From Christiangramia lutea (GTDB lineage Bacteria > Bacteroidota > Bacteroidia > Flavobacteriales > Flavobacteriaceae), in contig NZ_JAKVTV010000006.1 of NCBI RefSeq assembly GCF_022489035.1, positions 1-64,000 of the forward strand: a stretch of 64,000 bases of DNA, in the 5' to 3' direction. A program made the position numbers and the translations under genes. How positions within the stretch are numbered: the first letter of the stretch is position 1; each line of letters begins with the position of its first letter. Under the pieces are notes generated by a model. It searched no databases, had not been told where the DNA came from, and was given only the letters and a program-made list of their open reading frames with translations. Shown piece by piece: positions 41,785 to 57,893 of the stretch.

Positions 41785-41828
41785 CTGATAATGGTCATTT
41801 TTACTTCACTTTCACCAGTTTATTTTTG
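41785..41828 (+). promoter_or_regulatory. CRP/FNR-type promoter of hemN
   Basis: CTGATAATGGTCAT (41785-41798), then 23 bases counted from the TCA to TATTTTTG (41821-41828), a perfect -7 box. The hemN ATG is 18 bases further. One of seven identical-architecture promoters in this window. Confidence 0.8.
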
Positions 41829-41845
41829 GCTTAAAATTTAAAAAT

Positions 41846-43213
41846 ATGTTGCCATCTGCATTGATTGAAAAGTATAATATTCCGGGCCCAAGATACACCA
41901 GTTATCCCACCGTGCCATATTGGGAAAACAGGACATTCTCGTTGAAAGGCTGGAAAAGTTCACTAAAAAAGAGTTTTCTTGAGAGTAATTCTACGGAAGG
42001 AATAAGCCTTTATATTCACCTTCCGTTTTGTGAAAGCATGTGTACTTTTTGTGGTTGTAATAAGAGGATCACCAGAAATCACGGGGTGGAACTTCCATAT
42101 ATTGAATCGGTTTTGAAGGAATGGGATATGTATCGTGAATTATTCGGAGAAACTCCTGTGATTAAAGAGTTGCATCTGGGAGGCGGAACACCTACTTTCT
42201 TTTCCTCAGAAAATCTTCGCTTCCTGATCGAAGGTATTTTTAAAACTGCAAATAGATCACCTGAGGTTGAATTGAGTTTTGAAGGACACCCCAATAATAC
42301 GAGTAATGAACACCTCGAAACCTTATCTGATCTAGGCTTTAAAAGAGTAAGCTACGGAGTTCAGGATTATAATGAAAATGTGCAGAAGGCTATTCATAGA
42401 GTTCAACCGTTTGAAAAAGTGAAACTGGCAACAGAAATGGCAAGGTCTGCAGGATTTAAATCTGTGGGGCATGACGTGATCTTCGGTCTGCCATTTCAAA
42501 CAAAGGAAAATATAGTTTATACCATCAATAAGACCATTGAATTGCGTCCAGACAGGATCGCGTTTTATAGTTATGCCCATGTTCCGTGGATCAAGGGGAA
42601 TGGTCAGCGCGGATTTAGGGAGGAAGACCTTCCCGGAGCAAAGGAGAAACGCGATCAATATGAAACTGGTAAAAGGATGTTACTAGAGGCCGGATATACA
42701 GAAATTGGCATGGATCATTTCGCCCTGAAAACAGATTCTTTGTTCAAGGCGATGGAACAGAACACCTTACACCGAAACTTTATGGGCTATACTTCTTCAA
42801 AAACAAAGGCCATGATAGGCTTAGGTGTATCTTCAATTGGAGATAGCTGGTATGGCTTTGCCCAGAATGTAAAGGGTGTGGAAGAGTATCAGGATCTAAT
42901 TCAAAAGGGAATTTTCCCGGTTTTCAGAGGACATATCTTAACCCAGGAAGACCTGGCGATAAGAAAACATATTTTGAACCTTATGTGTAAATTCAAAACC
43001 CAGTGGTTCAGCTTAAACGAGTATTTCGAAGAACTACCCTCTGTATTGCATAAGCTGGAAGAAATGAAGAAAGATAAGCTTGTAGAGCTGGATTCGAATT
43101 TTATTAGAATTACAGATAAGGGCCAGTCATTTGTTCGTAATGTTTGTATGGCATTCGACCTTCGTTTGCAGAGAAAAAAACCAGAAACCCAATTGTTCTC
43201 CATGACCGTTTAA
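41846..43213 (+). CDS. hemN: Oxygen-independent coproporphyrinogen III oxidase
   Basis: 455 residues of the radical SAM HemN family, which converts coproporphyrinogen III to protoporphyrinogen IX without oxygen. The cluster motif CESMCTFCGC places C62, C66, C69 (and C71, as in true HemN). The N-terminus GPRYTSYPTVPYW, the GGGTPTFF SAM-binding segment and the C-terminal HemN domain (HILTQEDLAIRKHILNLMC) support true HemN over the HemW branch. The FNR-type promoter upstream fits expression when oxygen is scarce. Confidence 0.95.
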   Translation: MLPSALIEKYNIPGPRYTSYPTVPYWENRTFSLKGWKSSLKKSFLESNSTEGISLYIHLPFCESMCTFCGCNKRITRNHGVELPYIESVLKEWDMYRELFGETPVIKELHLGGGTPTFFSSENLRFLIEGIFKTANRSPEVELSFEGHPNNTSNEHLETLSDLGFKRVSYGVQDYNENVQKAIHRVQPFEKVKLATEMARSAGFKSVGHDVIFGLPFQTKENIVYTINKTIELRPDRIAFYSYAHVPWIKGNGQRGFREEDLPGAKEKRDQYETGKRMLLEAGYTEIGMDHFALKTDSLFKAMEQNTLHRNFMGYTSSKTKAMIGLGVSSIGDSWYGFAQNVKGVEEYQDLIQKGIFPVFRGHILTQEDLAIRKHILNLMCKFKTQWFSLNEYFEELPSVLHKLEEMKKDKLVELDSNFIRITDKGQSFVRNVCMAFDLRLQRKKPETQLFSMTV

Positions 43214-43260
43214 ATTGACCGGAGAAATTGTAAATTGATCTGTTTAAAAATAGATTTATA

Positions 43261-43899
43261 ATGGATTTAAACCAGTATATAGACCACACACTCCTTGCTG
43301 CCGGTGCCTCAGCTGCTGAAATAGAAAAACTTTGTCACGAAGCCGTGAAGTATAAATTTTATGCAGTTTGCGTGAATAGCAGTCGGGTGAAATATGCCAA
43401 AAAAGTTTTTTCTAATTCTGAAGTCAAACTTGCGGCAACTATTGGTTTTCCCCTGGGAGGCTCTTCTACAGAATCCAAAATAATTGAGGCTGGTACAGCA
43501 GTTCGTGATGGTGCAGATGAAATCGATATGGTGATGAATATTGGCCTTTTTAAGGATAAGAATTTTGAAGCTGTTCAGGCAGAGATCGAGGCAATAAAAA
43601 AAGAGATTGGTGATAACATATTAAAAGTGATCATAGAAACCTGTTATCTTTCAGATGAGGAAATAGAAATCGCCAGCAGGCTAAGCATGAATGCGGGAGC
43701 AGATTTTGTGAAAACCTCTACTGGTTTCGGGAGTCGTGGAGCCAGTCTTAATGACGTCAAGATCATGAAAAAAGTAGTTGGAGATAAGGTTAAGATCAAA
43801 GCTTCTGGTGGGATAAGGGATGCTGAGACCGTCAGGAAGTATATTTCTCTAGGAGTTGAGAGAATAGGAACTTCTTCCGGGATAAAGATTATTTCATAA
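43261..43899 (+). CDS. deoC: Deoxyribose-phosphate aldolase
   Basis: 212 residues, TIM barrel class I aldolase that splits 2-deoxyribose-5-phosphate to acetaldehyde and glyceraldehyde-3-phosphate. Schiff-base Lys151 lies in ADFVKTSTGF and the proton-relay Lys180 in KIKASGGI. The start DLNQYIDHTLL and AATIGFPLGGS are typical. Followed after 12 bases by purine nucleoside phosphorylase, so the pair salvages deoxynucleosides for carbon. Confidence 0.95.
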   Translation: MDLNQYIDHTLLAAGASAAEIEKLCHEAVKYKFYAVCVNSSRVKYAKKVFSNSEVKLAATIGFPLGGSSTESKIIEAGTAVRDGADEIDMVMNIGLFKDKNFEAVQAEIEAIKKEIGDNILKVIIETCYLSDEEIEIASRLSMNAGADFVKTSTGFGSRGASLNDVKIMKKVVGDKVKIKASGGIRDAETVRKYISLGVERIGTSSGIKIIS

Positions 43900-43911
43900 A
43901 ATTTTGAACAG

Positions 43912-44610
43912 ATGAGCCTACATATAGAAGCCGAAAAAGACCAGATAGCAGAAACCGTTTTATTACCAGGGGATCCTTTACGTGCCAGGTGGATCGCTGA
44001 AACTTTTCTTCAGCACCCGGTTTGTTATAATAATATTCGGGGGATGTTGGGTTTTACAGGAAGCTATAAAGGCAGGAAAGTTTCTGTGCAGGGAACGGGA
44101 ATGGGCGTACCTTCAACCATGATCTATTGCCATGAACTTATCAGCGAATATGGGGTGAAAAACCTAATAAGAGTAGGAAGTGCGGGCGCATTTCAGCCAG
44201 ATCTAAAATTAATGGACCTGGTTTTTGCCATGTCGGCTTCCACCAATTCAGCGTTGAACAAAGGAGTTTTTGGCGATGCAGATTATGCTCCAACCGCGAA
44301 TTTTGATCTTTTGATGAGAGCTGTGGATTATGCCCGCGAGAACAGGATCAATTTCAGGGCAGGGAATGTTCTTACATCAGATATTTTTTATGATGACGAC
44401 CCCGATTATTATAAAAAATGGGCTTCTCACGGAACCCTTTGTGCTGAAATGGAAACAGCCGGGTTATACACCCTGGCCGCTAAAAACGGAGTGAAGGCAT
44501 TTTCCATTCTAACTATTTCGGATTCACTGGTTAGTGGGGAAGAGATCTCTCCTGAAAAGCGTGAAAAGAAAATGAATGAAATGGTCGAGATCGCTCTTAA
44601 CTGTTATTGA
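43912..44610 (+). CDS. deoD: Purine-nucleoside phosphorylase (DeoD type)
   Basis: 232 residues of the hexameric PNP family. The phosphate-binding start VLLPGDPLRARWIAE, FTGSYKGRKVSVQGTGMG, RVGSAGAF, and the nucleoside site EMETAGLY are all present; the catalytic Asp is in TISDSL. Cleaves purine (deoxy)nucleosides with phosphate. Cotranscribed with deoC. Overlaps the convergent following gene by 14 bases. Confidence 0.94.
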   Translation: MSLHIEAEKDQIAETVLLPGDPLRARWIAETFLQHPVCYNNIRGMLGFTGSYKGRKVSVQGTGMGVPSTMIYCHELISEYGVKNLIRVGSAGAFQPDLKLMDLVFAMSASTNSALNKGVFGDADYAPTANFDLLMRAVDYARENRINFRAGNVLTSDIFYDDDPDYYKKWASHGTLCAEMETAGLYTLAAKNGVKAFSILTISDSLVSGEEISPEKREKKMNEMVEIALNCY

Positions 44611-45685
44611 TCTTTCGGTCTATATTGAAATTCACCTCAAGAGCATTAAACTTTCCGTAAACAAAGTCTGCATCAGGATAATGCCAGATAGTTTCTCCGT
44701 AGCTGGGTAAATTATATCCGTTAAATGATTTATAGCCTCCAACCGGGGTTGAGAACAGGAACTTTTTCTTTTCACCCAGATCGTACCTGTCGTTAGAAAA
44801 GAAATTGATTAGCTGACCTTCTTCCCCAAACTCCATGACCGCTGAAATCGATATTTCGGCGTAGGTATAGGTCACCTTGACCGTATGATTACCCATATTT
44901 TCAAAGCTGAATTTATCATTGATTAAGGCTCCGGGAGCAAATATGCAAACATCATTGAGATAGGTAACCATTTCAGATTTCAGTAATTTCCTTGAGCTTA
45001 TATCTATCACCTTAAAAATTGATAAGGGCTTAATCAACATTCGGGCAGTTTTCCCATCATATTTGTGGTAACCCTGGGTAGAAACACCTTTATAATTTGC
45101 CTTCATAAAAAAATACCTGCCCGGAGGATCTATAGTATTTAATTGTTCGGTGGTAAAGCTGAACCAGTTTTTATTTTTTTCACGCATTTGCCCTGAAAAA
45201 CGTATCTCGAAATTTTCAATTTCCGGTTTATCCAGGAAGCCGGAATACTTTAGATATTTCTTTACCGGAAGGGGAAGCATGGCAATATCTGCTTCAGAAA
45301 TTATTTTTCCTGAAACCGAATTAGCTATAATGGCATCGATTTTATCTTTTTTGAAGCTCTTCTCAAATTTCCATCCGGCAATAGAAATGATGATGACAAG
45401 AAGAATGATAAGATTCAGGATGCTTCCATATTTGGCAGCATCCCAGTTAAGGTAAATGAGTAGCTGTGAAGTGATCAAGGCAGGGATCGCGAGAAGGACC
45501 CAGGTTGGTTTTTTTCTTATGAATAGAATTGTTGTAACAGATATTAATACTGTGGCCAGGAACCATAAAAGACTTTGAGTTGCCGGAACCTGGGCAAATT
45601 CAGAAGCATACAAACGGGACCACGCAAATCCTAAAATATGGATCAGCATATGAATAATGAGCAATATTGCGAACAGAACTCTCAT
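44597..45685 (-). CDS. DUF6544-like membrane-anchored protein
   Basis: 362 residues. Three to four N-terminal hydrophobic helices (MRVLFAILLIIHMLIHILGF, LLWFLATVLISVTTILFI, LLAIPALITSQLLIYL, IILLVIIISIAGW) precede a soluble beta-rich domain starting MLPLPVKKYLKYSGFLDKPE. That entry motif recalls the DUF6544 family, whose fold may bind lipid like LolA. This is a tentative match. Separate from its neighbours in orientation; function unknown. Confidence 0.65.
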   Translation of the reverse strand: MRVLFAILLIIHMLIHILGFAWSRLYASEFAQVPATQSLLWFLATVLISVTTILFIRKKPTWVLLAIPALITSQLLIYLNWDAAKYGSILNLIILLVIIISIAGWKFEKSFKKDKIDAIIANSVSGKIISEADIAMLPLPVKKYLKYSGFLDKPEIENFEIRFSGQMREKNKNWFSFTTEQLNTIDPPGRYFFMKANYKGVSTQGYHKYDGKTARMLIKPLSIFKVIDISSRKLLKSEMVTYLNDVCIFAPGALINDKFSFENMGNHTVKVTYTYAEISISAVMEFGEEGQLINFFSNDRYDLGEKKKFLFSTPVGGYKSFNGYNLPSYGETIWHYPDADFVYGKFNALEVNFNIDRKINNS

Positions 45686-45735
45686 AACGGAACCTATTAA
45701 TGATCCCTTTTAAAAACCTCCCTATTCACGGGGAT

Positions 45736-46572
45736 TTAGGACATTTTAAAAGTGATCACGGGAACATTAGCATGGTTGGCAACGTTTTCACCAATACTGC
45801 CAAAGAAGAAATGGCCAAGACCTTTGCGACCATGGGTTGGAATGGCGATAGCATCTATCTGGGCTTCATTACAGAAATTATAGATTCCTCTTTCGGTAGT
45901 ATAATCATCATAGAAGGTTATTCTATCTTTAAATTCTTTGTTGTCCATTCCTGCGTCGATCAGGAAATTATAGGCTTTTAATTCCATTTCACTGGTGCTC
46001 ATAAATTTCTCAGGAATATTTATGAATAATATCTGAGGTTCTACATTGAACACCCTGAAGAAATTTCGAGCGCTTATAAAGGATTTCAAGGTTTCAATAT
46101 TGAAATCGGTTACGAACACTGCCTTATCGATTTTAAAATCTGTAATATGTTCTTTTATTACCAGAACAGGGACGTCTGAAGTTCTAACTACTTTTTCTGT
46201 ATTAGAACCTACAAAGACTTCCTTCATTCCCGTGGTGCCGTGAGACCCCATAACTATAAGGTCGACTTCATACTCCCTGGCAACTTCGTTGATCTCTGAA
46301 AATACTTTATGAGTTTTAACGACTTCGGTCACTTCGATTCCCTTGAGAAAATCCTTATTAAGTAGTTCTTCGAATTTTTGCTTGGCTAACTTCATAAAAT
46401 ATATAGCATTAAAAACCTCCTGTTTTTCATCCTTGGTGAGATAAGAATCGTGCATTCCCATCATATGAAGAACAATGATCTTAGCATTTTGTTTCCTGGC
46501 AAGGCTGGCTGCTACTTCAAGGGCATATTCAGAATGACTTGAAAAATCTACGGGTACAAGAATAGTTTTCAT
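45736..46572 (-). CDS. Universal stress protein, tandem UspA domains
   Basis: 278 residues with two UspA folds. The first opens MKTILVPVDFSSHSEYALEV and carries the ATP-binding loop VMGSHGTTGMKEVFVGSNTE. The second ends AIPTHGRKGLGHFFFGSIGE. It lies 19 bases behind the hibernation-factor gene and is probably cotranscribed from the CRP/FNR-type promoter at 46913-46956. By family knowledge it supports survival under energy or oxygen stress. Confidence 0.9.
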   Translation of the reverse strand: MKTILVPVDFSSHSEYALEVAASLARKQNAKIIVLHMMGMHDSYLTKDEKQEVFNAIYFMKLAKQKFEELLNKDFLKGIEVTEVVKTHKVFSEINEVAREYEVDLIVMGSHGTTGMKEVFVGSNTEKVVRTSDVPVLVIKEHITDFKIDKAVFVTDFNIETLKSFISARNFFRVFNVEPQILFINIPEKFMSTSEMELKAYNFLIDAGMDNKEFKDRITFYDDYTTERGIYNFCNEAQIDAIAIPTHGRKGLGHFFFGSIGENVANHANVPVITFKMS

Positions 46573-46591
46573 GATATTTGTTTTTTAATTT

Positions 46592-46888
46592 TTAAGCACT
46601 TAACAATGCCTTCTTTTTTGCAAGCTGCCTGCTAATTAGTTCAAACGCAAGTTTTGCTGAATTTTCGAAATGCTCCATGGTAGCCTCAGCACGATATTTT
46701 CCTCCAGGGACAGAGCATTCTATTTCACAAACTTTACCTTTCTTCGGAGTTGAATTTTCAAGCTTGAAATTCACTCTTATCTTCTGTATCATTTCAAACC
46801 TCTTAAGCAATTTATCCAGCTTATTTTTAGTGTAACTATTTAACGTTTCACTTTGAGGGATCTTGATATATTGAATCTGGTTGAACAT
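46592..46888 (-). CDS. hpf: HPF/RaiA-type ribosome-associated inhibitor
   Basis: 98 residues from ATG at 46888. Short-form hibernation factor: IKIPQSETLNSYTKNKLDKL, IQKIRVNFKLENS and the CEIECSVPGGKYRAEATMEH strands, followed by basic helix SRQLAKKKALLSA. It lacks the long HPF C-terminal dimerisation domain. The frame runs back to a TTG at 46915, but the -7 box of the promoter (46913-46920) overlaps that codon, so 46888 is the better start. First gene of an hpf-usp pair. Confidence 0.87.
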   Translation of the reverse strand: MFNQIQYIKIPQSETLNSYTKNKLDKLLKRFEMIQKIRVNFKLENSTPKKGKVCEIECSVPGGKYRAEATMEHFENSAKLAFELISRQLAKKKALLSA

Positions 46889-46912
46889 AACTATTGATAT
46901 TTGGTTACTGTT

Positions 46913-46956
46913 CAAAGCTATGATTCAGTGTCCTTAAAAAATATGACCGGAGTCAG
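46913..46956 (-). promoter_or_regulatory. CRP/FNR-type promoter of hpf-usp
   Basis: On the minus strand CTGACTCCGGTCAT (46956-46943), then 23 bases after the TCA, then TAGCTTTG (46920-46913), a perfect -7 box. The arms TGAC/GTCA are perfectly palindromic. Confidence 0.8.
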
Positions 46957-47038
46957 CATTCAAAGGATATTTTCCTTCCTTTTTTAGAAAACTTTTATGA
47001 TTGGTTTGGCCTAATAATCTGTAAATTAGAAAGAAAAG

Positions 47039-47263
47039 ATGAATATTTCAGGACTTACCCTATTAATAATAACAACTTTTATACTTGTGTTGCTTACTAT
47101 TTTAGCTTCAATGAACTTTTCCTTTGGAATTCTTTTTTATCTAATGTGTTTTGGGCAGATGATGTTAGTCTTTACTGTTTACAAAGTTCTTACCGATAAT
47201 TATACTACAAATAAGACCTTCAAGGATGGATATGAGGACAGACCTGTAAGGAGAGAAGAGTAA
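47039..47263 (+). CDS. Small two-helix membrane protein
   Basis: 74 residues: LTLLIITTFILVLLTILASM and GILFYLMCFGQMMLVFTVY are two hydrophobic helices, followed by a charged tail (FKDGYEDRPVRREE). I do not recognise a family. It is divergent from hpf and precedes the sensor kinase by 65 bases. Possibly part of the same stress block. Confidence 0.7.
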   Translation: MNISGLTLLIITTFILVLLTILASMNFSFGILFYLMCFGQMMLVFTVYKVLTDNYTTNKTFKDGYEDRPVRREE

Positions 47264-47328
47264 TTTTAATGTTTTCAGGTTTTTTATCAAAAACATTTTA
47301 CCTTTAATGGCGTTAAACAAAATCTAAA

Positions 47329-48579
47329 TTGCAGGAAAACTTTCTAGATAATAAAAACGTCTTCAATTTATTATTTCAAGGTGCATCAGAAGGAATAATA
47401 GTAGTGAATTCAGGGCAAATTGTGGTCGCAGCCAATCATGCAGCAGAAGAAATGTTTGGATACGAACATGGGGAACTTCACAATCAGCACCTCGATCTTT
47501 TAATACCTAAGAAATACCATCACAAACATCAGCAGCATGTAGATAAGTTCATCGAAGACAGTGAAAAAAGGCAGATGGGGCACGGCAGGGATCTTTACGG
47601 ACTTAAGAAAGATGGCTCCTTATTTCCAGTTGAAGCCGGGTTAAATCCTTTTGAGGTAAATGGAGAGCGTTTTGTGATGTCTCTCGTGATAGATATTACC
47701 GTAAGGAAAGAAAGTCAACGTCAAATTAGAGAGCTAAATACTCAGCTTGAGGAAAAAATTAAGATAAGGACACAGGAACTAAGCGATAGTGTGGAAGACC
47801 TTAAAAATTTAAACCTTGACCTGGAGCAGGAGATAAAAAGAAGAGAAAAGGCTGAGAAAAAAATTAAGGATGCCCTCCAGAAGGAAAAAGAGTTGAATGA
47901 GCTCAAAACAAAATTCCTTTCACTTGTTTCCCATGAGTTCAAGACTCCGTTAAGTGGCATCCTCACTTCAGCAACCCTGGCGGTGAAATATACCAGGGAA
48001 GAGCAACAGGAGAAGCGGGAAAAACATTTGAATACTATAAAGAATAAGGTGCATTACCTTAATAGCATTCTGAACGATTTTCTTTCAATTGAAAGACTGG
48101 ATAGCGGGAGAGGACAATACAGGTTTTCAAAATTCGGTCTTAAAAGACTTATCAACGAAGTGATCTACAATGCGAATGTCACTTTAAAGGATGGCCAGGA
48201 GATTTCATATCCCAGGGAGTTAGAGGATGTAGAGCTTTTTATGGATGAAAAGATTTTGGAGCTTATTCTGTCTAATTTACTTGGTAATGCGATAAAATAT
48301 TCACCAGAGGATACCTTGATCAAGTTCAAAGTAGATTTTAATGGTGAGTTTATCATATTTGAGATCGAGGATCAGGGTAGGGGAATACCAGAAAAAGATC
48401 AGAAGCATATTTTTGAGCGGTATTTCAGGGCAGAAAATGCTTTGCTCGATGAGGGTACAGGAATTGGGCTTAATATCGCCAAAACCCACCTTGAAAATCT
48501 GGGTGGAACTATAGAATTTAAAAGTATAGAAAACCGGGGAACCACCTTCAGTGTAAAGGTGCCCATGGATAAATCTTAA
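47329..48579 (+). CDS. PAS-domain histidine kinase, FixL-like
   Basis: 416 residues, TTG start, soluble. A PAS domain (about 10-125), a coiled coil (130-190), HisKA with His202 in LVSHEFKTPLSG, and HATPase with SNLLGNAIKYS, DQGRGIP and GTGIGLNIAK. In the PAS domain His67 (PKKYHHKH) and Arg87 (MGHGRD) align with haem-ligand His200 and distal Arg220 of Bradyrhizobium FixL, with the same spacing of 20. That suggests a haem oxygen sensor, although this PAS motif also occurs where no cofactor has been shown. It lies 27 bases before its likely partner, the REC-CRP regulator. Confidence 0.88.
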   Translation: MQENFLDNKNVFNLLFQGASEGIIVVNSGQIVVAANHAAEEMFGYEHGELHNQHLDLLIPKKYHHKHQQHVDKFIEDSEKRQMGHGRDLYGLKKDGSLFPVEAGLNPFEVNGERFVMSLVIDITVRKESQRQIRELNTQLEEKIKIRTQELSDSVEDLKNLNLDLEQEIKRREKAEKKIKDALQKEKELNELKTKFLSLVSHEFKTPLSGILTSATLAVKYTREEQQEKREKHLNTIKNKVHYLNSILNDFLSIERLDSGRGQYRFSKFGLKRLINEVIYNANVTLKDGQEISYPRELEDVELFMDEKILELILSNLLGNAIKYSPEDTLIKFKVDFNGEFIIFEIEDQGRGIPEKDQKHIFERYFRAENALLDEGTGIGLNIAKTHLENLGGTIEFKSIENRGTTFSVKVPMDKS

Positions 48580-48606
48580 AAATCAGAAATAATTTTAAAC
48601 AGCCAT

Positions 48607-49647
48607 ATGAAGAAATTATTGCTAATTGAGGATGATGTAACCGTAAGGGAGAATACCGCTGAACTTCTGGAGCTTTCCAATTATGACGTAGTTACCGCAC
48701 CAAATGGAAAGAAAGGTATCGAAAAGGCTGAAGAGGAAGTGCCAGATATTATTATTTGTGATATTATGATGCCGGAAGTTGACGGGTATGGAGTTCTGGA
48801 AGCCCTGAGTAAAAATCCAAAGACACTGAATATCCCTTTTATATTTCTTTCGGCTAAAACCGAACATAAGGACATAAGAAAAGGAATGGACCTGGGAGCA
48901 GATGATTATCTCACCAAACCATTTGAAGAAGATGAATTATTAAGCGCCATTGAAAGCAGGCTGGCAAAAATGGCCATTCTTAATTCTAACAGAAAAGAGG
49001 AATTTCCACCTAAGGAAGAACCGTTGAAAGATCTGGATGATCTCAGGGAAATTTTTTCCAGACAGGAGCTTCAATATTTCAAAAAAGGAGAGATTATTTA
49101 TGAAAAAGATAAGCATGCAAATTACTTTTATCTTGTGAAAAGAGGAGTGGTAAAGGCTCACCGGATGGACAACCAGGGGAAAGAACTTATCACCGAGCTT
49201 TATAAAGAGGATGACTTTTTCGGAAATCACGTCAACGACCTGCATTCATCTTACGAAGATTATGCTACGGCCATGGAAGATACCCAATTGTATGCGGTTT
49301 CCAGGGAGGAATTTCATAAGATCCTGGAGGGAAATCCGAAGATTACCATGCAATTGGTTGAAGTTCTTAATCATAACCTTTCTGAATTGAAACAACAACT
49401 CATGAATATGGCATATGGTTCTGTAAGAAGGAAGACCGCAAATACCATACTGCTTTTTGCTGAAAGAATTGAAAAACATCCCTTAAAAAGCATACGTATA
49501 TCCAGGGCCGATCTTGCCGGGGTAGCTGGGATGGCGCCAGAGAGTCTCATAAGAACCCTTTCTGAATTCAAAAAAGAAGGACTTATTGAGATCGAAGGCC
49601 GTAACATTAAATTAATGGATTCTGAAGCCCTGAAAAACATTAAATAA
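48607..49647 (+). CDS. Response regulator fused to CRP/FNR DNA-binding module
   Basis: 346 residues. A REC domain has phospho-acceptor Asp52 (IICDIMMPEVDG) and the K of LTKPF. A cNMP-binding-like beta barrel follows (about 145-260; FKKGEIIYEKDKHANYFYLV), then a dimerisation helix and a CRP winged helix. The recognition helix GMAPESLIRTLSEF carries E312 and R316, the E-x3-R pair that CRP and FNR use to contact the GA of TGA. There are no cysteines arranged for an iron-sulfur cluster, so signal input should come by phosphorylation from the kinase upstream. It is the best candidate to bind the CTGA-N6-TCAT sites in this window. Confidence 0.9.
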   Translation: MKKLLLIEDDVTVRENTAELLELSNYDVVTAPNGKKGIEKAEEEVPDIIICDIMMPEVDGYGVLEALSKNPKTLNIPFIFLSAKTEHKDIRKGMDLGADDYLTKPFEEDELLSAIESRLAKMAILNSNRKEEFPPKEEPLKDLDDLREIFSRQELQYFKKGEIIYEKDKHANYFYLVKRGVVKAHRMDNQGKELITELYKEDDFFGNHVNDLHSSYEDYATAMEDTQLYAVSREEFHKILEGNPKITMQLVEVLNHNLSELKQQLMNMAYGSVRRKTANTILLFAERIEKHPLKSIRISRADLAGVAGMAPESLIRTLSEFKKEGLIEIEGRNIKLMDSEALKNIK

Positions 49648-49674
49648 CCTGCTTTCTCGGTTAATTATTAAGAA

Positions 49675-49718
49675 CTGATTTTTATCATTTTTTGCAATGT
49701 AGACTTCACCTAATTTCG
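49675..49718 (+). promoter_or_regulatory. CRP/FNR-type promoter of usp
   Basis: CTGATTTTTATCAT (49675-49688), then 23 bases after the TCA, then TAATTTCG (49711-49718), one mismatch to TAnnTTTG. The ATG follows 20 bases after the box. Confidence 0.75.
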
Positions 49719-49737
49719 CTTTATTAAGTGATGATCC

Positions 49738-50505
49738 ATGAACGTCTTAATCCTAACCGATTTCTTAGAAACATCAGATAATGCTGGAAGGTACGCCGTT
49801 GATTTTCTTCAGAAAAAACAGGCGAACTTTTTCCTGCTGAATATCCATAATTTCAATTTCAGCAGGTCTGCCGGTGATAAACTTGAGAATGAACTTGTGT
49901 CTACCCTGGATGAATTACAGCAGGATACAAAAGAACTTAAAGCGTATACCAGGAATAAACAACATAAATTCAATACGATACTTTCTTCGGAAAGTCTTAT
50001 TAGTGCTGTTAGAAAAGCCCTGGTAGAAAAGAAGATCGATCTCATCTTTATTGGTGCGGTAAGCCGTGAGAAACATGATCATCCAATTTTAGGAAATCAT
50101 GCTTATGAGGTGGTTAGGAAGATAAAATGCAATATAATAGCAGTTCCGGCCGGCTGTACCTATAAAGATCCTAAGAAAGCGGTATTTCCGGTAGATCCAG
50201 AGATCCTTTCTACAAATGCCCAGAGTGGGATCGCTAATGATCTGCATTACCTAGAACCTCTCGATTTTACTTTCCTGGAAATAAAGGATGGTGATATTGA
50301 ATATTCTGGTTTATCTCATTCAGATGAACCCATTAAAACCCCGGTACCTTTTACTAAGAAACTTTTCATGGAATTGCAGAAAGAGTTCGATATCATTTTT
50401 GTGGCCGGTAAAAATCTTAGTATTTGTGACAGGTTACTGCACACACAATATGGGTTTTCTGTAAAAATGGATATCAATATCCCCATTTTTGTCTATCATG
50501 GATAA
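49738..50505 (+). CDS. Universal stress protein
   Basis: 255 residues. The first half is a UspA-like fold (MNVLILTDFLETSDNAGRYA and LIFIGAVSREKHDHPILGNH then AYEVVRKIKCNIIAVPA). The second half is a degenerate UspA domain without a clear G-x9-G nucleotide loop (IFVAGKNLSICDRLLHTQYG). Loss of the loop in the second half suggests a structural role for it. It has its own CRP/FNR-type promoter and lies just behind the two-component genes. Confidence 0.82.
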   Translation: MNVLILTDFLETSDNAGRYAVDFLQKKQANFFLLNIHNFNFSRSAGDKLENELVSTLDELQQDTKELKAYTRNKQHKFNTILSSESLISAVRKALVEKKIDLIFIGAVSREKHDHPILGNHAYEVVRKIKCNIIAVPAGCTYKDPKKAVFPVDPEILSTNAQSGIANDLHYLEPLDFTFLEIKDGDIEYSGLSHSDEPIKTPVPFTKKLFMELQKEFDIIFVAGKNLSICDRLLHTQYGFSVKMDINIPIFVYHG

Positions 50506-50536
50506 TAGCCAATTTCAAGATTGGATCTAGACCAAT

Positions 50537-50557
50537 AAAAAAAGCCGGGAATCCGGC
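50537..50557 (-). terminator. Terminator behind globin gene
   Basis: On the minus strand GCCGG-ATTC-CCGGC (50557-50544) is followed by a run of seven T (50543-50537). It lies between convergent usp and globin genes and best serves the minus strand. Confidence 0.85.
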
Positions 50558-50586
50558 TGTATCTAATTCAATTTCAACTTTTATAT

Positions 50587-50982
50587 TCAGATTTTCTTCG
50601 CCTGGCGGGACTGGTAAATTCTCAGGAAGAGGTGAGTAGACATTTTGCGGGCATTCTGCTTTAGCCTCTCGGCTAATTCTCCTGAATATAGTTCGTCTAT
50701 GGATTGGAACCAGAGGTTTAGCCAGATTCCGAAGTGATATTCGGAAATACTATTGTCATGGTCACTATCTACTTTAATATGAGCTAGAGCAGGATTTCCT
50801 TTAAAACTACCGGTAAAAAACAGGTTACTTTCCCAAAAATCGGTGAGCTTTTCAAAATGTTGCTCCCAGTTCTTAATACTGTTATTGAAAAAGTAACCTA
50901 TTTCTTTGTCCTTCCGGACTTTAGTATAAAAATTTATTACCAGTCGTTTTAAATCGGCCCTATCCTTAAGATCTTCTTTCAT
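50587..50982 (-). CDS. Group III truncated haemoglobin
   Basis: 131 residues of the trHb group III (P-type) family: VINFYTKVRKDKEIGYFFNN, NWEQHFEKLTDFWESNLFF, and proximal His in NPALAHIKV with the following FGIWLNLWFQSIDE helix. Binds oxygen or NO; in relatives linked to nitric oxide or microaerobic metabolism. It directly abuts the membrane-protein gene upstream (no gap) and shares its CRP/FNR-type promoter. Confidence 0.9.
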   Translation of the reverse strand: MKEDLKDRADLKRLVINFYTKVRKDKEIGYFFNNSIKNWEQHFEKLTDFWESNLFFTGSFKGNPALAHIKVDSDHDNSISEYHFGIWLNLWFQSIDELYSGELAERLKQNARKMSTHLFLRIYQSRQAKKI

Positions 50983-51267
50983 TTAAGAAAGTATATTGAT
51001 CAGGATAAAAATACTGCTTGCAAGTAAACTGATGATCAAAGAGTTGAATACAAATTTAGATTTTAATTGTGCGAGTACAGAGGCGTTGAACCACATACAA
51101 ACAACTACAATAAGACCAAGTTGTATCATTTCTGAAAGACCATGACCGTTCATCAATATCAGCATAGCAGCGATTGCACCCATACAGCTGGAAACAAGTA
51201 TTCCTGTAGAGGCTCCGGCATAATAATCACGTGTAAATTCTGAAAGTTGTTTTTGGTAAATATTCAT
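50983..51267 (-). CDS. Small three-helix membrane protein
   Basis: 94 residues from ATG at 51267. YYAGASTGILVSSCMGAIAA, IQLGLIVVVCMWFNASVLA and SLIISLLASSIFILINIL are hydrophobic segments. No family recognised. An upstream in-frame ATG at 51318 is excluded because the predicted transcription start (about 51289) lies downstream of it. Cotranscribed with the globin gene, so a role in low-oxygen physiology is likely but unspecified. Confidence 0.78.
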   Translation of the reverse strand: MNIYQKQLSEFTRDYYAGASTGILVSSCMGAIAAMLILMNGHGLSEMIQLGLIVVVCMWFNASVLAQLKSKFVFNSLIISLLASSIFILINILS

Positions 51268-51293
51268 CGCTTTTTGTTTTATGATTATAGGGT

Positions 51294-51337
51294 CAAAAAT
51301 AGACCAGTTATACTTCATTAAATATGATGAATCTCAG
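51294..51337 (-). promoter_or_regulatory. CRP/FNR-type promoter of membrane protein/globin pair
   Basis: On the minus strand CTGAGATTCATCAT (51337-51324), then 23 bases after the TCA, then TATTTTTG (51301-51294), a perfect -7 box. Confidence 0.8.
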
Positions 51338-51367
51338 CTTTCAGCGAATTCAGAAAAAAATATAATT

Positions 51368-52645: not shown

Positions 52646-52696
52646 AGCATTTAAATTCTTAAATGTTTCCGTTTATAATTTAATGAAAACAAAATA

Positions 52697-53263
52697 TTAT
52701 TCCAGGGATAATTTTAAATCGAACAGGACTTCAATTTCTTCATCAACTTTAATAAGACCAAGGGCTTTTTTTGGGGGTTCCAAACCAAAATCCCGAATGT
52801 TCATGGCAAATTTCCCGCTGAAATATTCCTGGTCTACCTTAACCGGCAGATCATATTTATTAGTTTTTCCGGCCAGTTTAACGGTGATAAATGCCTTGTT
52901 ATATTCCCCCGGAAATGTTTCTACCCGGTCTATTTGTATCTCTATTACTGGATATATATCACACATTAAAAGATCCTGGAAATCTGAATTCATTCTTTTA
53001 TGGCCGCAATCGAAACCCGTGGTTTCAAATTGAAGCAACAGGTCCTGAAAGGTGAGATATTTATTTTCCCTGATAAACTTTACCTCACGTGTGTCGCTTA
53101 TCAGGTTCATATTGAACTTACAATCGAACTTATTCACATTGGTACTTCCGGCAATGATCAGTTCACTTTCAGGAAGTATCTTAATGTCTACTCTTTTAAG
53201 GTCTGCCTGGGCGTTTACAATAAATCCCCCTAGAAGTAAACCGATTAAAAATAGCTTTTTCAC
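52697..53263 (-). CDS. YceI-like periplasmic protein
   Basis: 188 residues with signal peptide MKKLFLIGLLLGGFIVNAQA. The lipocalin-like YceI fold is suggested by GSTNVNKFDCKFNMNL, MNSDFQDLLMCDIYPVIEIQ and FSGKFAMNIRDFGLEPPKKA. YceI proteins bind isoprenoid-type molecules. It is the more divergent of two YceI proteins that flank the porin gene. Confidence 0.82.
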   Translation of the reverse strand: MKKLFLIGLLLGGFIVNAQADLKRVDIKILPESELIIAGSTNVNKFDCKFNMNLISDTREVKFIRENKYLTFQDLLLQFETTGFDCGHKRMNSDFQDLLMCDIYPVIEIQIDRVETFPGEYNKAFITVKLAGKTNKYDLPVKVDQEYFSGKFAMNIRDFGLEPPKKALGLIKVDEEIEVLFDLKLSLE

Positions 53264-53294
53264 GATGGTGAATTTTTACGATTACCTTAAAATT

Positions 53295-53343
53295 ATTTCG
53301 GGTAGCGAACCTTAAAACTAAATTTAAGAAGGCTACCCGAAAT
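53295..53343 (-). terminator. Large hairpin downstream of porin gene
   Basis: ATTTCGGGTAGC (53295-53306) and GCTACCCGAAAT (53332-53343) are perfect 12 bp arms. A second inner stem CTTAAA/TTTAAG (53311-53316/53323-53328) sits in the loop. It lies between the porin stop and the next gene's start. It probably terminates or attenuates porin transcription. Confidence 0.6.
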
Positions 53344-53355
53344 TGCTATTCCAAT

Positions 53356-54624
53356 TTAGAAGCTAATGGCAGCTTCTACCATGAGTCCGTCAAATTTAGC
53401 CTCGTGCTGGTAGCTTGTCGGCGGATATCCGTCGTAGTTTTGAGTTACATATTCTAATTTCATCAGGATGTTCTTGGTCATATACCATCCTGCTGCAAGT
53501 TGGAATCTATCTACATCGATATCTTCTCCAGACTTAAGTTCTCCACTTACGGTATTATAACGTGCACCTAAATGGAAGTCTTCATATTTTCCAAATCTGT
53601 ACAGAAGCTCTCCGGAAAACTGGTTATAGGTTCTTGTATCAGATTCACCACTATCCTTTCCAGAAGTAGTTTCAATGATTCCAAAGAACTCCAGGCCGCC
53701 AAACTTTACAAATGGGTTGATCATAAAAGAGGTCATTTTATTTCGGAAGTCAGGAACAACCATACCTCCTCTAAATCCGTCTCCACCACCTTCAACATCG
53801 CTAATCACTTCGTAATAACGTGATCCAGCACGGTCACCCCTGTAAAGATAAACTCCCCTGGCATCGTTATGAGCACTGTGATACACAGAACCGGTTAAAC
53901 GGAACCTTGTTTTTTCAGAAAAACTATTGTCATATCCAAACTTGGCAAGGAATGAAGGGCTGGTTTGATCTTTATCTGAAACGTTCTGGTTCAGCTTTCC
54001 ATTAGTGAAACCTGCCATTGCCAACCAGGGACCACCAAAGTAATACACCTCGGCTCCAACTTCAGTTGTAAAAGCATCCATAACATAGTTACCAACAAAT
54101 GGGTTGTAAATAGATTGTGCGTTATCGGTTCTCCTAAAGTGCCCGTCACCATAGTTATTTTCCATATGACCAATCTTGATTCTCATATGATCCATAAGAC
54201 CTTCTGCAAAACCTTCACTAATAAAATCCAGTTTATCTATTTGGATATAACCACCTTTTACATAGGCTTCATTGTGGTGTTGAGAAGAAAGATAGGTTCT
54301 AAGGTGCATTCTAACACCATCATAAAGGGCAACGTCAAGGTCAAGGTTTGCTGTTGCCAGGTTGAAGTTTCCACCAAGATCCACAAGTTCTACCGGGCCG
54401 TCGTTTTCCTGGCTCAACGACTGGAATTGTATGGTTGAAGCACCTCCAACTCTTACATGAAGTCCGTCGAAAGTAGATACTGTGTCCTTAGGAGCTTCAA
54501 ACTGGTTAACACCTCTTTGATCACGATATCTGAAGTTGTCAAGATCTCTCTGATTTTGTGCCATCGTTGGGAGGGCCATCAGGATCATTATCGCTATTCC
54601 GAAAAATTGAGTTATAGTTTTCAT
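53356..54624 (-). CDS. Outer-membrane porin-like protein
   Basis: 422 residues with signal peptide (FFGIAIMILMALPTMAQ). Alternating aromatic beta strands (FHLGARYNTVSGEL, MKLEYVTQNYDGYPP, GLMVEAAISF with terminal Phe) indicate a 16-stranded-type beta barrel of the phosphate-selective porin O/P-like group. The C-terminal Phe fits Bam-dependent insertion. It is sandwiched between two yceI genes in one direction. Solute unknown. Confidence 0.8.
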   Translation of the reverse strand: MKTITQFFGIAIMILMALPTMAQNQRDLDNFRYRDQRGVNQFEAPKDTVSTFDGLHVRVGGASTIQFQSLSQENDGPVELVDLGGNFNLATANLDLDVALYDGVRMHLRTYLSSQHHNEAYVKGGYIQIDKLDFISEGFAEGLMDHMRIKIGHMENNYGDGHFRRTDNAQSIYNPFVGNYVMDAFTTEVGAEVYYFGGPWLAMAGFTNGKLNQNVSDKDQTSPSFLAKFGYDNSFSEKTRFRLTGSVYHSAHNDARGVYLYRGDRAGSRYYEVISDVEGGGDGFRGGMVVPDFRNKMTSFMINPFVKFGGLEFFGIIETTSGKDSGESDTRTYNQFSGELLYRFGKYEDFHLGARYNTVSGELKSGEDIDVDRFQLAAGWYMTKNILMKLEYVTQNYDGYPPTSYQHEAKFDGLMVEAAISF

Positions 54625-54647
54625 TTTTATTTAGTTTAAGGTTGATT

Positions 54648-55226
54648 TTATTTTTTAAAATGAGATTCGAATTTGATGACGACGTCTTCACCGGTTTTAA
54701 TCGTTCCGAACATAGCGGTTGGAGCTTCCACCCCGTAATTTGTCATATTCAGTTTATATTCCCCTGTTAGAACAATCTGGTCTGAACCTGATTTCAAATT
54801 GAAATCAAGATTGATGTCCTTTGTTGTTCCAGCAATCTCCAGGCTTCCTGTTGTTTTTACTTTAAATGTACCTGGAGAAACCTTATCGATGCCTTTCACG
54901 TCTTTCAGCTTATAGGTGATCTCCTTATGCTTATCTGTGTTCAGGGCTTTATAGGTGTTCTTGTCCATTCCGCTTTTCCCGCTCATCAAACTTTCCGCAA
55001 CTACTGTAAACTCCAGTTTACTTATGTTCTCTAATTCGCTTGCATTGAAATCCGCAGTAAGATTACCGCCGGTATTTTCTGCTTCAATGGTCCAGTCATG
55101 AATATTGGAAGTACCATCTATTAATAAACTGGAAGCTTCATTATTCAGTTTGTAGGATTGTGCATTTACCCCGAAGCTTAAGAGCAAGGCTACTATCAAA
55201 ATCCTATAATTGCTGTAAGGTTTCAT
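54648..55226 (-). CDS. YceI family periplasmic protein
   Basis: 192 residues with signal peptide MKPYSNYRILIVALLLSFGV. Clear YceI features: SLLIDGTSNIHDWTIEAENT, LEFTVVAESLMSGKSGMDKN, LNMTNYGVEAPTAMFGTIKT. First gene of a possible yceI-porin-yceI unit and divergent from fixI. A CRP/FNR-type promoter (55251-55294) precedes it, so it belongs to the same proposed regulon as the oxidase genes. Confidence 0.9.
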   Translation of the reverse strand: MKPYSNYRILIVALLLSFGVNAQSYKLNNEASSLLIDGTSNIHDWTIEAENTGGNLTADFNASELENISKLEFTVVAESLMSGKSGMDKNTYKALNTDKHKEITYKLKDVKGIDKVSPGTFKVKTTGSLEIAGTTKDINLDFNLKSGSDQIVLTGEYKLNMTNYGVEAPTAMFGTIKTGEDVVIKFESHFKK

Positions 55227-55250
55227 ATCGATTGATTTTTAATTTCATTA

Positions 55251-55294
55251 CAAAGTTGCGGTAGGAGTACTTGTTAGATAATGATGAAAATCAG
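55251..55294 (-). promoter_or_regulatory. CRP/FNR-type promoter of yceI
   Basis: On the minus strand CTGATTTTCATCAT (55294-55281), then 23 bases after the TCA, then CAACTTTG (55258-55251), one mismatch to TAnnTTTG. The yceI ATG is 24 bases further. Confidence 0.75.
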
Positions 55295-55359
55295 CTTTTG
55301 GTAAATTTTGAATCCCGCTTACATGCCGAAAACGTTATAGTTTGGAAAAAATGCAATCC

Positions 55360-55403
55360 CTGATAAGCGTCATATTTTTACCAATTTCAATTTCACAGCT
55401 TTG
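55360..55403 (+). promoter_or_regulatory. CRP/FNR-type promoter of fixI
   Basis: CTGATAAGCGTCAT (55360-55373), then 23 bases after the TCA, then CAGCTTTG (55396-55403), one mismatch to TAnnTTTG. The fixI ATG is 23 bases further. Confidence 0.78.
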
Positions 55404-55426
55404 CTTCTTAATATTTATTCAGGGTT

Positions 55427-57847
55427 ATGGAATCATGCTTTCATTGCGGCGAAGACTGCCAGGAAGAGCTAATAAATTTTGACGAAAAGTCTTTTTGTTG
55501 TTCTGGTTGTAAGACTGTTTACGAGATCCTTAATTCCAATGATCTCTCTTATTATTATGACCTGCAAAGCTCTCCCGGAACCTCCCCAAAACTGAGCGAA
55601 GGCAAGTTCAGTTACCTGGATAATTCTGAAATTGCAGAGAAACTTCTGGAGTTCGATCATGAAGGAACACAGATAGCCTCCTTCACTATACCTTCCATTC
55701 ATTGTAGTTCCTGTATCTGGATTCTTGAAAACTTGGGCAGGCTTCATAAAGGGGTAAAAAGTTCACAGGTAGATTTTCCACGGAAAAAGATCAGGATAAG
55801 TTTTTCTTCGGAAGAATTAAGCCTTAAGGAGCTGGTAGTAATGCTCGCCAGGATAGGGTATGAACCAAATATCTCCCTGGAAAATTACGAGGAAAAGGAG
55901 ACTAGTGTAGACCGAAGCCTTATCTATAAACTTGGTGTAGCCGGTTTTGCTTTTGGGAATATCATGTTCCTTTCTTTTCCGGAATATTTTGAGATGAACG
56001 AATTCTGGCTGGAAAAGTTCAAGCATTTGTTCCGTTGGCTAATGTTTGCCTTTTCGCTACCGGTAGTTTTTTATTCTGGCAAGGATTATTTCATTTCAGC
56101 CTTCAAGGGACTAAGATCTGGATTGCTGAATATTGATGTTCCTATCGCATTAGGAATTACTGTGCTATTTTTAAGAAGTACTGCAGAGATTGTCCTTGAT
56201 CTGGGGACAGGATTTTTTGATAGCCTTAGCGGCCTCGTATTTTTCCTGTTGCTGGGTAAATTTTTTCAGCAGAAGACTTATTCCTTCCTGTCTTTTGAAA
56301 GGGATTATAAATCCTATTTCCCTATAGCTGTAACCCGAATTTCGATGGAAAATGGACAGACAAAAGAGGAACAGGTTCAGGTCTTTAACATAAAAAAAGG
56401 AGATCATATCATTATTCGTAATGAAGAATTGATCCCGATGGATGCCATTCTCATTAAGGGAGATGCCAGTATCGATTATAGTTTCGTAACGGGGGAGGCT
56501 CAACCGGTTTCAAAAAAAATGGGAGATAAGGTATTTGCCGGTGGCAGGCAACAGGGAGGTATCATCGAACTGGAAGCTTTAAGATCGGTACAGCAAAGTT
56601 ACCTTACCGAGTTGTGGAGTGATGAGGTCTTTAGCAAGGATAAAAATTCACAATTTCACAACCTTACCAACCAGATAAGCAGGAGATTTACCTATGCGGT
56701 TTTAGGTATAGCCATTCTTGCAGCAATTTTCTGGATGTTCTATGATTCATCCAAAGCCTGGAATGTTTTTACAGCGGTGTTGATTATAGCCTGCCCTTGT
56801 GCGATCGCTCTGGCAGCACCTTTTACCCTCGGTAATATGCTCAGGATCTTCGGAAGAAACCATTTATACCTGAAAGATGCTAATATCATTGAAAAAATGG
56901 CCCAGGTAGATACGGTGGTTTTTGATAAGACCGGCACTATTACTGCAAATGATAATGGCAGTATTGAATATGAGGGCCTTGAACTCACTGAAGATGAAAA
57001 GCAATTACTTGGAGGTAGTCTTCGTGCTTCCAACCATCCTTTAAGTAGATCGCTTTATAAAATCCTGGATAGGAATAATATTTCTACTCCGGAAAGTTTT
57101 AAGGAGCACACCGGAAAGGGTTTGGAAACTTCATATAAGGAGCTAAACCTAAAGATTGGTTCTCATGCTTTCGTGGCCAATTCTCAAAATACTAATACAG
57201 AAGCCCGGGCTCAGGTAAACCCACAGAAAACATCAGTATTTATTAGTTGCAATGACCAGTATAAAGGTTGCTTTAGTTTCCACAATTCTTACCGTGAAGG
57301 ACTTTCAGACCTGCTAAATGAGCTTTCAGAAAATAAGCAGCTAATTATTTTATCTGGAGATAACGATGGGGAAAAAGATCGTTTAAAGAAGATCCTTCCG
57401 AAAGATACCAAAATGTATTTCGATCAGAAACCAGGTAACAAATTGCAATTTATCAAAGATCTCCAGGAAAAGAACCGCAAGGTGATGATGGTAGGGGACG
57501 GATTAAATGATGCCGGAGCCCTTGCTCAAAGTGATGTTGGAATAGTGATCTCTGAGGATATCAATGTTTTTTCTCCGGCTTGTGATGGTATTTTGGATGC
57601 TCGAAGGTTCAGCGAATTAGGGAAATTTTTTAGGCTTTCAGAAAAATCGATCTCCATCATCAGGATCAGTTTCCTGCTGTCACTTTGCTACAATGTTGTA
57701 GGACTCGGATTCGCAGTTTCAGGAAACCTGATGCCGGTGGTGGCTGCTATCCTGATGCCGTTAAGTTCGATTAGCATCGTTGCATTCACTACCCTGGCAA
57801 CCCAGTTTGTTTCAAAAAAAAGTTCAAAAAATGAAATAAGGTCTTAA
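55427..57847 (+). CDS. fixI: Copper-transporting P-type ATPase for cbb3 assembly
   Basis: 806 residues. An N-terminal Cys-rich metal-binding region (CFHCGEDC, FCCSGCKTVYEIL) and an HMA domain with HCSSC precede eight transmembrane helices. The P1B core has the CPC membrane motif (IIACPCAIALAAPF), phosphorylation site Asp500 in DKTGT, TGEAQP, and the hinge GDGLNDAGALAQSD. In cbb3 systems CcoI/FixI supplies copper to the CcoN active site. It heads the oxidase cluster and has its own CRP/FNR-type promoter. The intracellular domain is slightly compact but complete. Confidence 0.93.
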   Translation: MESCFHCGEDCQEELINFDEKSFCCSGCKTVYEILNSNDLSYYYDLQSSPGTSPKLSEGKFSYLDNSEIAEKLLEFDHEGTQIASFTIPSIHCSSCIWILENLGRLHKGVKSSQVDFPRKKIRISFSSEELSLKELVVMLARIGYEPNISLENYEEKETSVDRSLIYKLGVAGFAFGNIMFLSFPEYFEMNEFWLEKFKHLFRWLMFAFSLPVVFYSGKDYFISAFKGLRSGLLNIDVPIALGITVLFLRSTAEIVLDLGTGFFDSLSGLVFFLLLGKFFQQKTYSFLSFERDYKSYFPIAVTRISMENGQTKEEQVQVFNIKKGDHIIIRNEELIPMDAILIKGDASIDYSFVTGEAQPVSKKMGDKVFAGGRQQGGIIELEALRSVQQSYLTELWSDEVFSKDKNSQFHNLTNQISRRFTYAVLGIAILAAIFWMFYDSSKAWNVFTAVLIIACPCAIALAAPFTLGNMLRIFGRNHLYLKDANIIEKMAQVDTVVFDKTGTITANDNGSIEYEGLELTEDEKQLLGGSLRASNHPLSRSLYKILDRNNISTPESFKEHTGKGLETSYKELNLKIGSHAFVANSQNTNTEARAQVNPQKTSVFISCNDQYKGCFSFHNSYREGLSDLLNELSENKQLIILSGDNDGEKDRLKKILPKDTKMYFDQKPGNKLQFIKDLQEKNRKVMMVGDGLNDAGALAQSDVGIVISEDINVFSPACDGILDARRFSELGKFFRLSEKSISIIRISFLLSLCYNVVGLGFAVSGNLMPVVAAILMPLSSISIVAFTTLATQFVSKKSSKNEIRS

Positions 57848-57849
57848 AG

Positions 57850-57893
57850 CTGACAATAGTCATTTTTTAGGCCTGGCTCTCAGAATACTTTTA
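57850..57893 (+). promoter_or_regulatory. CRP/FNR-type promoter of cco operon
   Basis: CTGACAATAGTCAT (57850-57863), then 23 bases after the TCA, then TACTTTTA (57886-57893), one mismatch to TAnnTTTG. The ccoS ATG is 19 bases further. Arms TGAC/GTCA are perfectly palindromic. Confidence 0.8.

Follow-up and report, generated by a model that had tools for sequence, protein, structure and literature searches.

Which protein reads seven promoters that share one arrangement, and in answer to which signal, is the question raised by a stretch of Christiangramia lutea DNA of 64,000 nt (contig NZ_JAKVTV010000006.1; the whole stretch is called the window here, and its genome G000). In each of these promoters, the sequence CTGA-N6-TCAT stands at the same distance before a -7 box. 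The seven are probably class II activator-dependent promoters of the CRP/FNR type, and their features point to REC-CRP, a protein with a receiver domain and a CRP-type output (48607-49647, plus strand), as the reader, switched under low oxygen by the neighbouring FixL-like PAS kinase (47329-48579, plus strand). Site anatomy, spacing, conservation, gene neighbourhood, co-occurrence, and the conserved phosphorylation and recognition residues are directly established.

Promoter layout in the window and in relatives

A pattern scan of the window found all seven CTGA-N6-TCAT sites at the coordinates given in the initial annotation; the gap from TCAT to the box is exactly 22 bases (23 after TCA) in every case, the seven boxes read as reported, and site centre and ATG lie 54.5-63.5 bases apart, where 54-64 had been given, with the ATG of hpf at 46888 and that of the membrane protein at 51267 (the mechanical starts of these open reading frames, ORFs, differ). 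The full pattern CTGA-N6-TCAT-N22-YANNTTYR has 7 exact matches in the window and none with exactly one mismatch, and 0.005 exact matches are expected from a first-order Markov simulation, whose 600 windows held 3 exact matches in total; in the simulated sequence the pattern is not as common as in the window (0.005 per simulated window versus 7), which agrees with the initial annotation. With up to three mismatches, 47 matches are found versus 50 by chance. CTGAN6TCAT by itself occurs at 13 places in the window versus 2.6 expected, and the remaining six of these places have no box at +23. Chance as the origin of the layout is rejected by the simulation, the mismatch counts, and the spacing of 23 in the loci of relatives; because the pattern was derived from the same seven sites, the fair test lies in other genomes.

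The relatives' loci comprise the best 80 among the matches listed to the REC-CRP protein (1.57 Mb), which come from named genomes and metagenome-assembled genomes and include Christiangramia, Gillisia, Salinimicrobium, Aquimarina, Maribacter, and Psychroflexus, among others. In them, 139 copies of TGA-N6-TCA are followed by TAnnTTTG at a spacing of 23, versus 0-9 copies for every one of the 39 other spacings from 5 to 44; with a looser box, 341 sites are found at spacing 23 versus 2-17 at other spacings, and these 341 sites are spread over 78 of the 80 loci and have the consensus A-n-(C/A)-TGA-Y-N4-R-TCAT, behind which the sequence is T-rich. The flanking C and T had been described as invariant; the T after TCA holds up (97% of the 341 sites), but the C before TGA does not (C in 55%, A in 30%), and the dyad is incompletely symmetric. 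The idea that a C before TGA is needed in general, or that it marks REC-CRP, was also rejected, as A is found there in the ccoS/ccoN promoters of five genomes that have REC-CRP and no FNR-type protein encoded beside ccoN. It can be seen that the layout recurs across the Flavobacteriaceae and is no local coincidence.

In the start-site map of Flavobacterium psychrophilum, the TAnnTTTG box lies at -12 to -5 (PMC9723704). Since the spacing is 23, arithmetic on the data of this relative places the dyad centre between -42 and -41, i.e., at -41.5, which would be the class II CRP/FNR position, with the proximal half-site in place of the -33 element. A class II CRP/FNR activator site replacing the -33 element in one low-oxygen regulon, as first suggested for this locus, remains the preferred interpretation, and its recurrence in relatives gives it much more weight than seven promoters could. 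The link to low oxygen is drawn from gene content, from the FixL-like residues of the kinase, and from one published observation in F. psychrophilum: under oxygen limitation, its cbb3 oxidase is strongly upregulated and haem-biosynthesis enzymes are also upregulated, in a report whose main text does not contain the words Fnr and CRP (PMC9723704).

A different arrangement was seen in another family of the order (f4). None of its nine ccoN loci has a site at 23, and in five of the nine (L151, L152, L157, L158, and L159), TGA-N6-TCA was seen by eye 11 bases before TAAATTTG or TAATTTTG; this spacing would set the site near -29.5, which would mean a different promoter layout or repression.

REC-CRP and the neighbouring kinase

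The initial annotation spoke of one activator and left it unnamed; REC-CRP and the PAS kinase are now proposed as the regulator. G000 has three HTH_Crp_2 proteins and six cNMP-binding proteins. REC-CRP, the proposed reader of all seven sites, combines a receiver (Response_reg), a cNMP_binding fold, and an HTH_Crp domain (PF00027 and PF13545). The Glu and Arg of its helix APESLIRTL are the residues that read TGA in the CRP/FNR superfamily; both are invariant in the 81 aligned REC-CRPs (E-S/T-x-I-R), and the motif E-x-x-I-R is common to this helix and to the ccoN-side FNRs of relatives (32 of 32). The other two HTH_Crp_2 proteins of G000, with TRAVVNRHL and TSRVVISRL, are without that Glu, and L160, a cNMP-binding protein of the same genome, has the helix TQVSLSRIR. 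The receiver of REC-CRP carries the residue set of response regulators, namely an acidic pocket, a phospho-acceptor Asp, a Thr/Ser, and a Lys: D52, S82, and K104 are present in 81 of 81 rows, and E8, D9, and D10 in all 80 ungapped rows (one row has a gap). Its CRP part has no cysteine, so the Fe-S cysteine set of FNR is absent; the cNMP fold is present, and its stretch FFGNHVNDLHSSYEDYATAM was found, by eye and with no model run, to be without the GE...RSA signature of the cAMP pocket. In G000, REC-CRP alone matches the family's ccoN-side FNR at 1e-8; the two are neighbours in a tree whose long branches leave distant joins unsure, and which was built without the FNR rows L204, L214-L216, and L218 and without the other rows L112, L182, L183, L186, and L188. 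In 72 of 80 loci, REC-CRP is followed by a site at a distance of no more than 350 bp.

The PAS-HisKA-HATPase histidine kinase, identified by domain search and proposed as the low-oxygen sensor, is encoded immediately before REC-CRP, with the same orientation, in 78 of 80 loci. Of 75 loci, 48 have TGA-N6-TCA in the 250 bp that precede the kinase, versus 15% of random stretches, and 25 have the canonical spacing of 23 toward the gene divergent from the kinase. The kinase's own promoter often has a reversed site (ATGA-N6-TCAG) at spacing 11 or 24-26; reversed sites stand upstream of the kinase in L065, L087, L089, L102, and L108, in L044, L047, L048, L061, and L064, and in others. Autoregulation through the sites in the kinase promoter is possible.

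Among solved structures, the PAS domain of the kinase matches FixL best (1d06, 8.9e-16), followed by a multi-sensor kinase (10jx, 4.7e-14) and then by other FixL structures and DosP. The proximal His and distal Arg of FixL align with His67 and Arg87 of the kinase; the equivalent of His67 is kept in 72 of 76 aligned rows, and that of Arg87 in 57 of 76. PAS domains of such a type occur without haem too, and on these residues haem sensing by the PAS kinase is plausible.

In the proposed mechanism, scarce oxygen would activate the kinase, its phosphate would pass to Asp52 in the receiver of REC-CRP, and phosphorylated REC-CRP would bind and activate at -41.5; as a dimer of the CRP/FNR superfamily centred there on TGA-N6-TCA, in place of the -33 element, it would recruit sigma-A polymerase at a -7 box of the TAnnTTTG type. 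The predicted targets are the cbb3 oxidase with its copper ATPase, haem synthesis by the oxygen-independent route, universal stress proteins (USPs), a ribosome hibernation factor, a globin-like protein, and YceI.

Genes behind the sites

Each of the seven promoters of the window, consisting of site, 22-base spacer, and box, was located by pattern scan. The hemN promoter (41785-41828, plus strand; TATTTTTG box) precedes hemN for oxygen-independent coproporphyrinogen III oxidase (41846-43213, plus; TIGR00538 above cut-off), and the hpf-usp promoter (46913-46956, minus; TAGCTTTG box) precedes the genes for an hpf-like ribosome hibernation protein (46592-46888, minus; PF02482, with TIGR00741 below its cut-off) and a USP (45736-46572, minus; PF00582 in two stretches). 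Another USP (49738-50505, plus; PF00582) stands behind the usp promoter (49675-49718, plus; TAATTTCG box). The promoter at 51294-51337 (minus; TATTTTTG box) belongs to a small membrane protein (50983-51267, minus; assigned by eye, with no family match for the frame) and a truncated-globin-like protein (50587-50982, minus; labelled by eye, without a match in Pfam or NCBIfam). A YceI-like protein (54648-55226, minus; PF04264) follows the yceI promoter (55251-55294, minus; CAACTTTG box), and the ccoI/fixI promoter (55360-55403, plus; CAGCTTTG box) is followed by a CcoI/FixI-type copper P-type ATPase (55427-57847, plus; PF12156, PF00122, and TIGR01525). The last promoter (57850-57893, plus; TACTTTTA box), which is kept in relatives, stands before ccoS (57912-58106, plus; labelled from its place before ccoNO, with matches in 20 of 80 loci), fused ccoNO for cbb3 oxidase subunits (58109-60304, plus; labelled from sequence and context, with matches in 42 of 44 genomes searched), and the genes that follow.

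When the 341 sites of the 80 loci and the seven of the window are taken together, the rule used gives a downstream ORF for 331 and none for 17. USPs follow 130 sites, which come from 77 of the 81 sources when the window is counted as one; 25 sites precede hpf, 21 ccoS/ccoN, 15 the small membrane protein, 12 YceI, and 10 hemN, and a further 33 precede a family whose gene, in the example inspected, runs divergently from the kinase. In families with at least three members, the central 50% of the distances from site to ATG spans 62-69 bases. The shared regulon content suggested at first fits these recurrent families, but the content varies, and the hpf site is mostly not found in genomes without REC-CRP: around 18 hpf-like loci from 16 such genomes, checked over about 3 kb per locus, 17 have no TGA-N6-TCA at a spacing of 21-25 from a box (one of these 17 was covered over 1.9 kb). 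The other locus, L305, has two TCAG-type matches, one of them about 0.3 kb upstream of hpf. Membership of hpf in the regulon is unsupported for genomes without REC-CRP.

In the whole of G000, CTGAN6TCAT occurs at 227 places, and a box at +23 is found in none of the first 30 outside the window. TGAYN4RTCATWWT occurs at 26 places versus 11 for a control read backwards; 6 of the 26 are within the window, and among 19 checked of the 20 outside it, L233 has a full box and L243 all but its last base. Both precede genes whose products have USP-like starts, as judged by eye (MRRILVPTDFS and MKNILLPTDFSEN, respectively). TGA-N6-TCA with a strict TAnnTTTG box at spacings of 8-38 gives 49 matches in G000, and spacing 23 accounts for 5, three in the window and two outside. 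Both outside matches were set aside, one as lying inside coding sequence; the other, L163 (GTGAAAAAGGTCATG), overlaps the end of one gene, yet stands 82 bases before another ORF, and this site may be real. The regulon extends past the window and appears to be concentrated in it. Two palindromes of the form AATATGAY-N4-RTCATATT, which match in both directions, were also seen, at G000:C1:1041940-1041959 (L227/L228), where there is no -7 box at 23, and at G000:C27:81265-81284 (L242/L243).

FNR, REC-CRP, and known systems

A search covered 196 genomes of the order, and the 40 genomes listed here are those of the window's family. REC-CRP was scored on the first ten candidates per genome and called at an identity of at least 50%; FNR was called as the best HTH_Crp_2 protein (16 genomes) or at an identity of at least 44% to the L165 protein (16 genomes), and G086 was without a ccoN search. 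REC-CRP is present in 14 of the 40 genomes and a ccoN-side FNR in 32; when the sets are made up by hand, six genomes have both, eight REC-CRP only, 26 FNR only, and none has neither. A weaker REC-CRP match is found in 10 of the 26 FNR-only genomes, at 42-44% identity over most of the protein in nine and over the receiver domain only in G086; the nine are assigned to a second subfamily. Members of a second REC-CRP subfamily with 41-45% identity were seen in G091, G066, G120, G177, and others, mostly alongside FNR, and G110 has both subfamilies. The flavobacterial ccoN-side FNR has four cysteines that are invariant in 32 of 32 proteins, with a CxxC near the N-terminus, one cysteine in VFC, and one in EVCFIP (L165-L180 and L195-L210). 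The third is not where Cys29 of E. coli FNR would be, and the cluster may be bound differently.

The 16 genomes without any REC-CRP match all have FNR 3-6 kb from ccoN and a canonical site before ccoS/ccoN, and REC-CRP as the sole reader throughout the family is thereby rejected. The ccoS/ccoN site is likewise present in all five genomes with REC-CRP, a ccoN match, and no ccoN-side FNR (G034, G057, G164, G188, and G192), in the ccoN locus of four of the six genomes with both regulators, and at ccoN in eight of nine genomes with FNR and a weaker REC-CRP match, G066 having its site at spacing 24. Both states occur in one genus (g3): G026 has the ccoN-side FNR without REC-CRP, and in G057 and G164 REC-CRP lies next to the cbb3 genes and the ccoN-side FNR is absent. 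The sharpest test is given by G076 and G133, in which REC-CRP is present with no other match to the FNR query at 1e-8 and no ccoN match: each has 6 strict sites in the 19.9 kb around REC-CRP, three of them before USP-like ORF starts, and REC-CRP is the only HTH_Crp_2 protein over cut-off with the Glu and Arg. The chances are about even that one class II oxygen regulon of the Flavobacteriaceae kept its site and exact geometry but changed its reader: a cysteine-bearing FNR encoded next to ccoN, which would be a direct sensor of oxygen, would have given way to a FixL-like kinase with REC-CRP. If true, this swap from FNR to a two-component CRP at unchanged sites would be a natural regulator replacement under a conserved regulon, in one family.

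Several observations weigh against REC-CRP as a reader under oxygen control. No strict site is found at the ccoN locus in two of the six two-regulator genomes, or in the 19.9 kb around REC-CRP in G192, though the ccoS site is present there; G034, G057, G164, G188, and G192 have at least one further CRP-type protein with the helix Glu and Arg (of the types VETVIR, REVISR, or REVITR); two of these genomes, G057 and G164, also have a second cysteine-bearing FNR-like protein elsewhere, with an EEQVIR helix. On the side of the kinase, 19 of 76 sequences are without the distal Arg, and among the haem-pocket residues compared only the His and Arg match, with Gln here in place of FixL I215. In G000 itself, the 213-aa cNMP-binding protein L161 (C23:587826), which lies outside PF13545, has near its end the helix TPESLSRIR with Glu and Arg. 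That L161 or another CRP-type protein reads the sites while REC-CRP regulates something else is nevertheless unlikely: the six cNMP-binding proteins of G000 and the other Glu/Arg helices in five of the seven relatives with REC-CRP and no ccoN-side FNR leave room for it, but a site follows REC-CRP closely in the 72 loci mentioned above, the FNR and REC-CRP helices share E-x-x-I-R, each of the 40 family genomes listed has one or the other of these two regulators, and no other HTH_Crp_2 protein over cut-off has the Glu in G076 and G133. The second cysteine-bearing family, observed as L263 in G057, L265 in G164, and L182-L186, has an EEQ(A/V)xR helix, with CxxCxxxxC in L263 and L265, and could also read TGA-N6-TCA sites.

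REC-CRP might also read the sites while the kinase senses redox, NO, energy, or nutrient state, and the regulon would then be a broad stress or dormancy response with respiration as one part. USPs as the largest target class (130 of 331 ORFs), the kinases without distal Arg, and the sites of G076 and G133 in the absence of a ccoN match fit such a response, which we consider improbable given that FixL is the best solved match of the PAS domain, that cbb3, hemN, and ccoI are among the targets, and that, where REC-CRP is absent, the same box goes together with a cysteine-bearing FNR encoded beside ccoN. It is hardly credible that the element belongs to an alternative-sigma promoter or arose by local duplication of one promoter, with no transcription-factor site: the invariant spacing and the asymmetric T-rich flank after TCAT could be taken that way, but upstream there is a dyad, TGAY-N4-RTCA, whose middle letters vary, as do those of the spacer, the box is of the ordinary TAnnTTTG type, and the sites stand before unrelated genes in 78 of 80 loci. 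The proposed control of the seven promoters by REC-CRP and its FixL-like kinase can be set beside known systems.

Little is settled about promoters of Bacteroidota that depend on an activator, since the -7 box and -33 element of this phylum are unlike those of other bacteria; a conserved activator site at a fixed distance from the -7 box provides a rule by which low-oxygen genes can be found in Flavobacteriaceae. In proteobacteria, class II regulons of the FNR/ANR type use TTGAT-N4-ATCAA; they are alike in the CRP/FNR protein, in the dyad, whose centre is predicted here too at -41.5, and in targets such as cbb3 oxidase, hemN, and USPs, whereas here there are ATGA/CTGA half sites, a Bacteroidota -7 box, and a proposed reader with a receiver domain and without the FNR cysteine set. 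The rhizobial FixL-FixJ-FixK system is alike in its FixL-like PAS kinase, its response regulator, and a CRP/FNR protein for cbb3 oxidase and hemN; here, in contrast, receiver and CRP output are fused, the transcription step from FixJ to FixK would be missing, and universal stress genes dominate the targets. The domain search agrees with this, as the output of REC-CRP is CRP-type and not LuxR-type as in FixJ, and its receiver and CRP fold share one frame, unlike a separate FixK without receiver. Mycobacterial DosS/DosT-DosR places a haem kinase and a response regulator over many USPs in hypoxia, but with a LuxR-type output and another promoter architecture. It has been reported that NmpRSTU of Myxococcus xanthus is a multi-component two-component control of an oxygen-use regulon, in which cbb3 oxidase, its P-type ATPase, and HemN are named, as among the targets here, and the paper uses the term universal stress protein 12 times, within references wherever its context was seen; in the account given there, a protoglobin sensor and an NtrC-like regulator with no CRP fold are described, unlike the present case (PMC11841059). 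Flavobacteriales CRP/FNR homologues have been placed in a MalR-like group, in passages that do not mention the site (PMC8510549), and no description of this regulon was found among the open-access literature matches listed. Precedents exist both for class II CRP/FNR promoters and for control of the FixL type; the unusual part is the proposed fused receiver-CRP reader of an otherwise FNR-like regulon.

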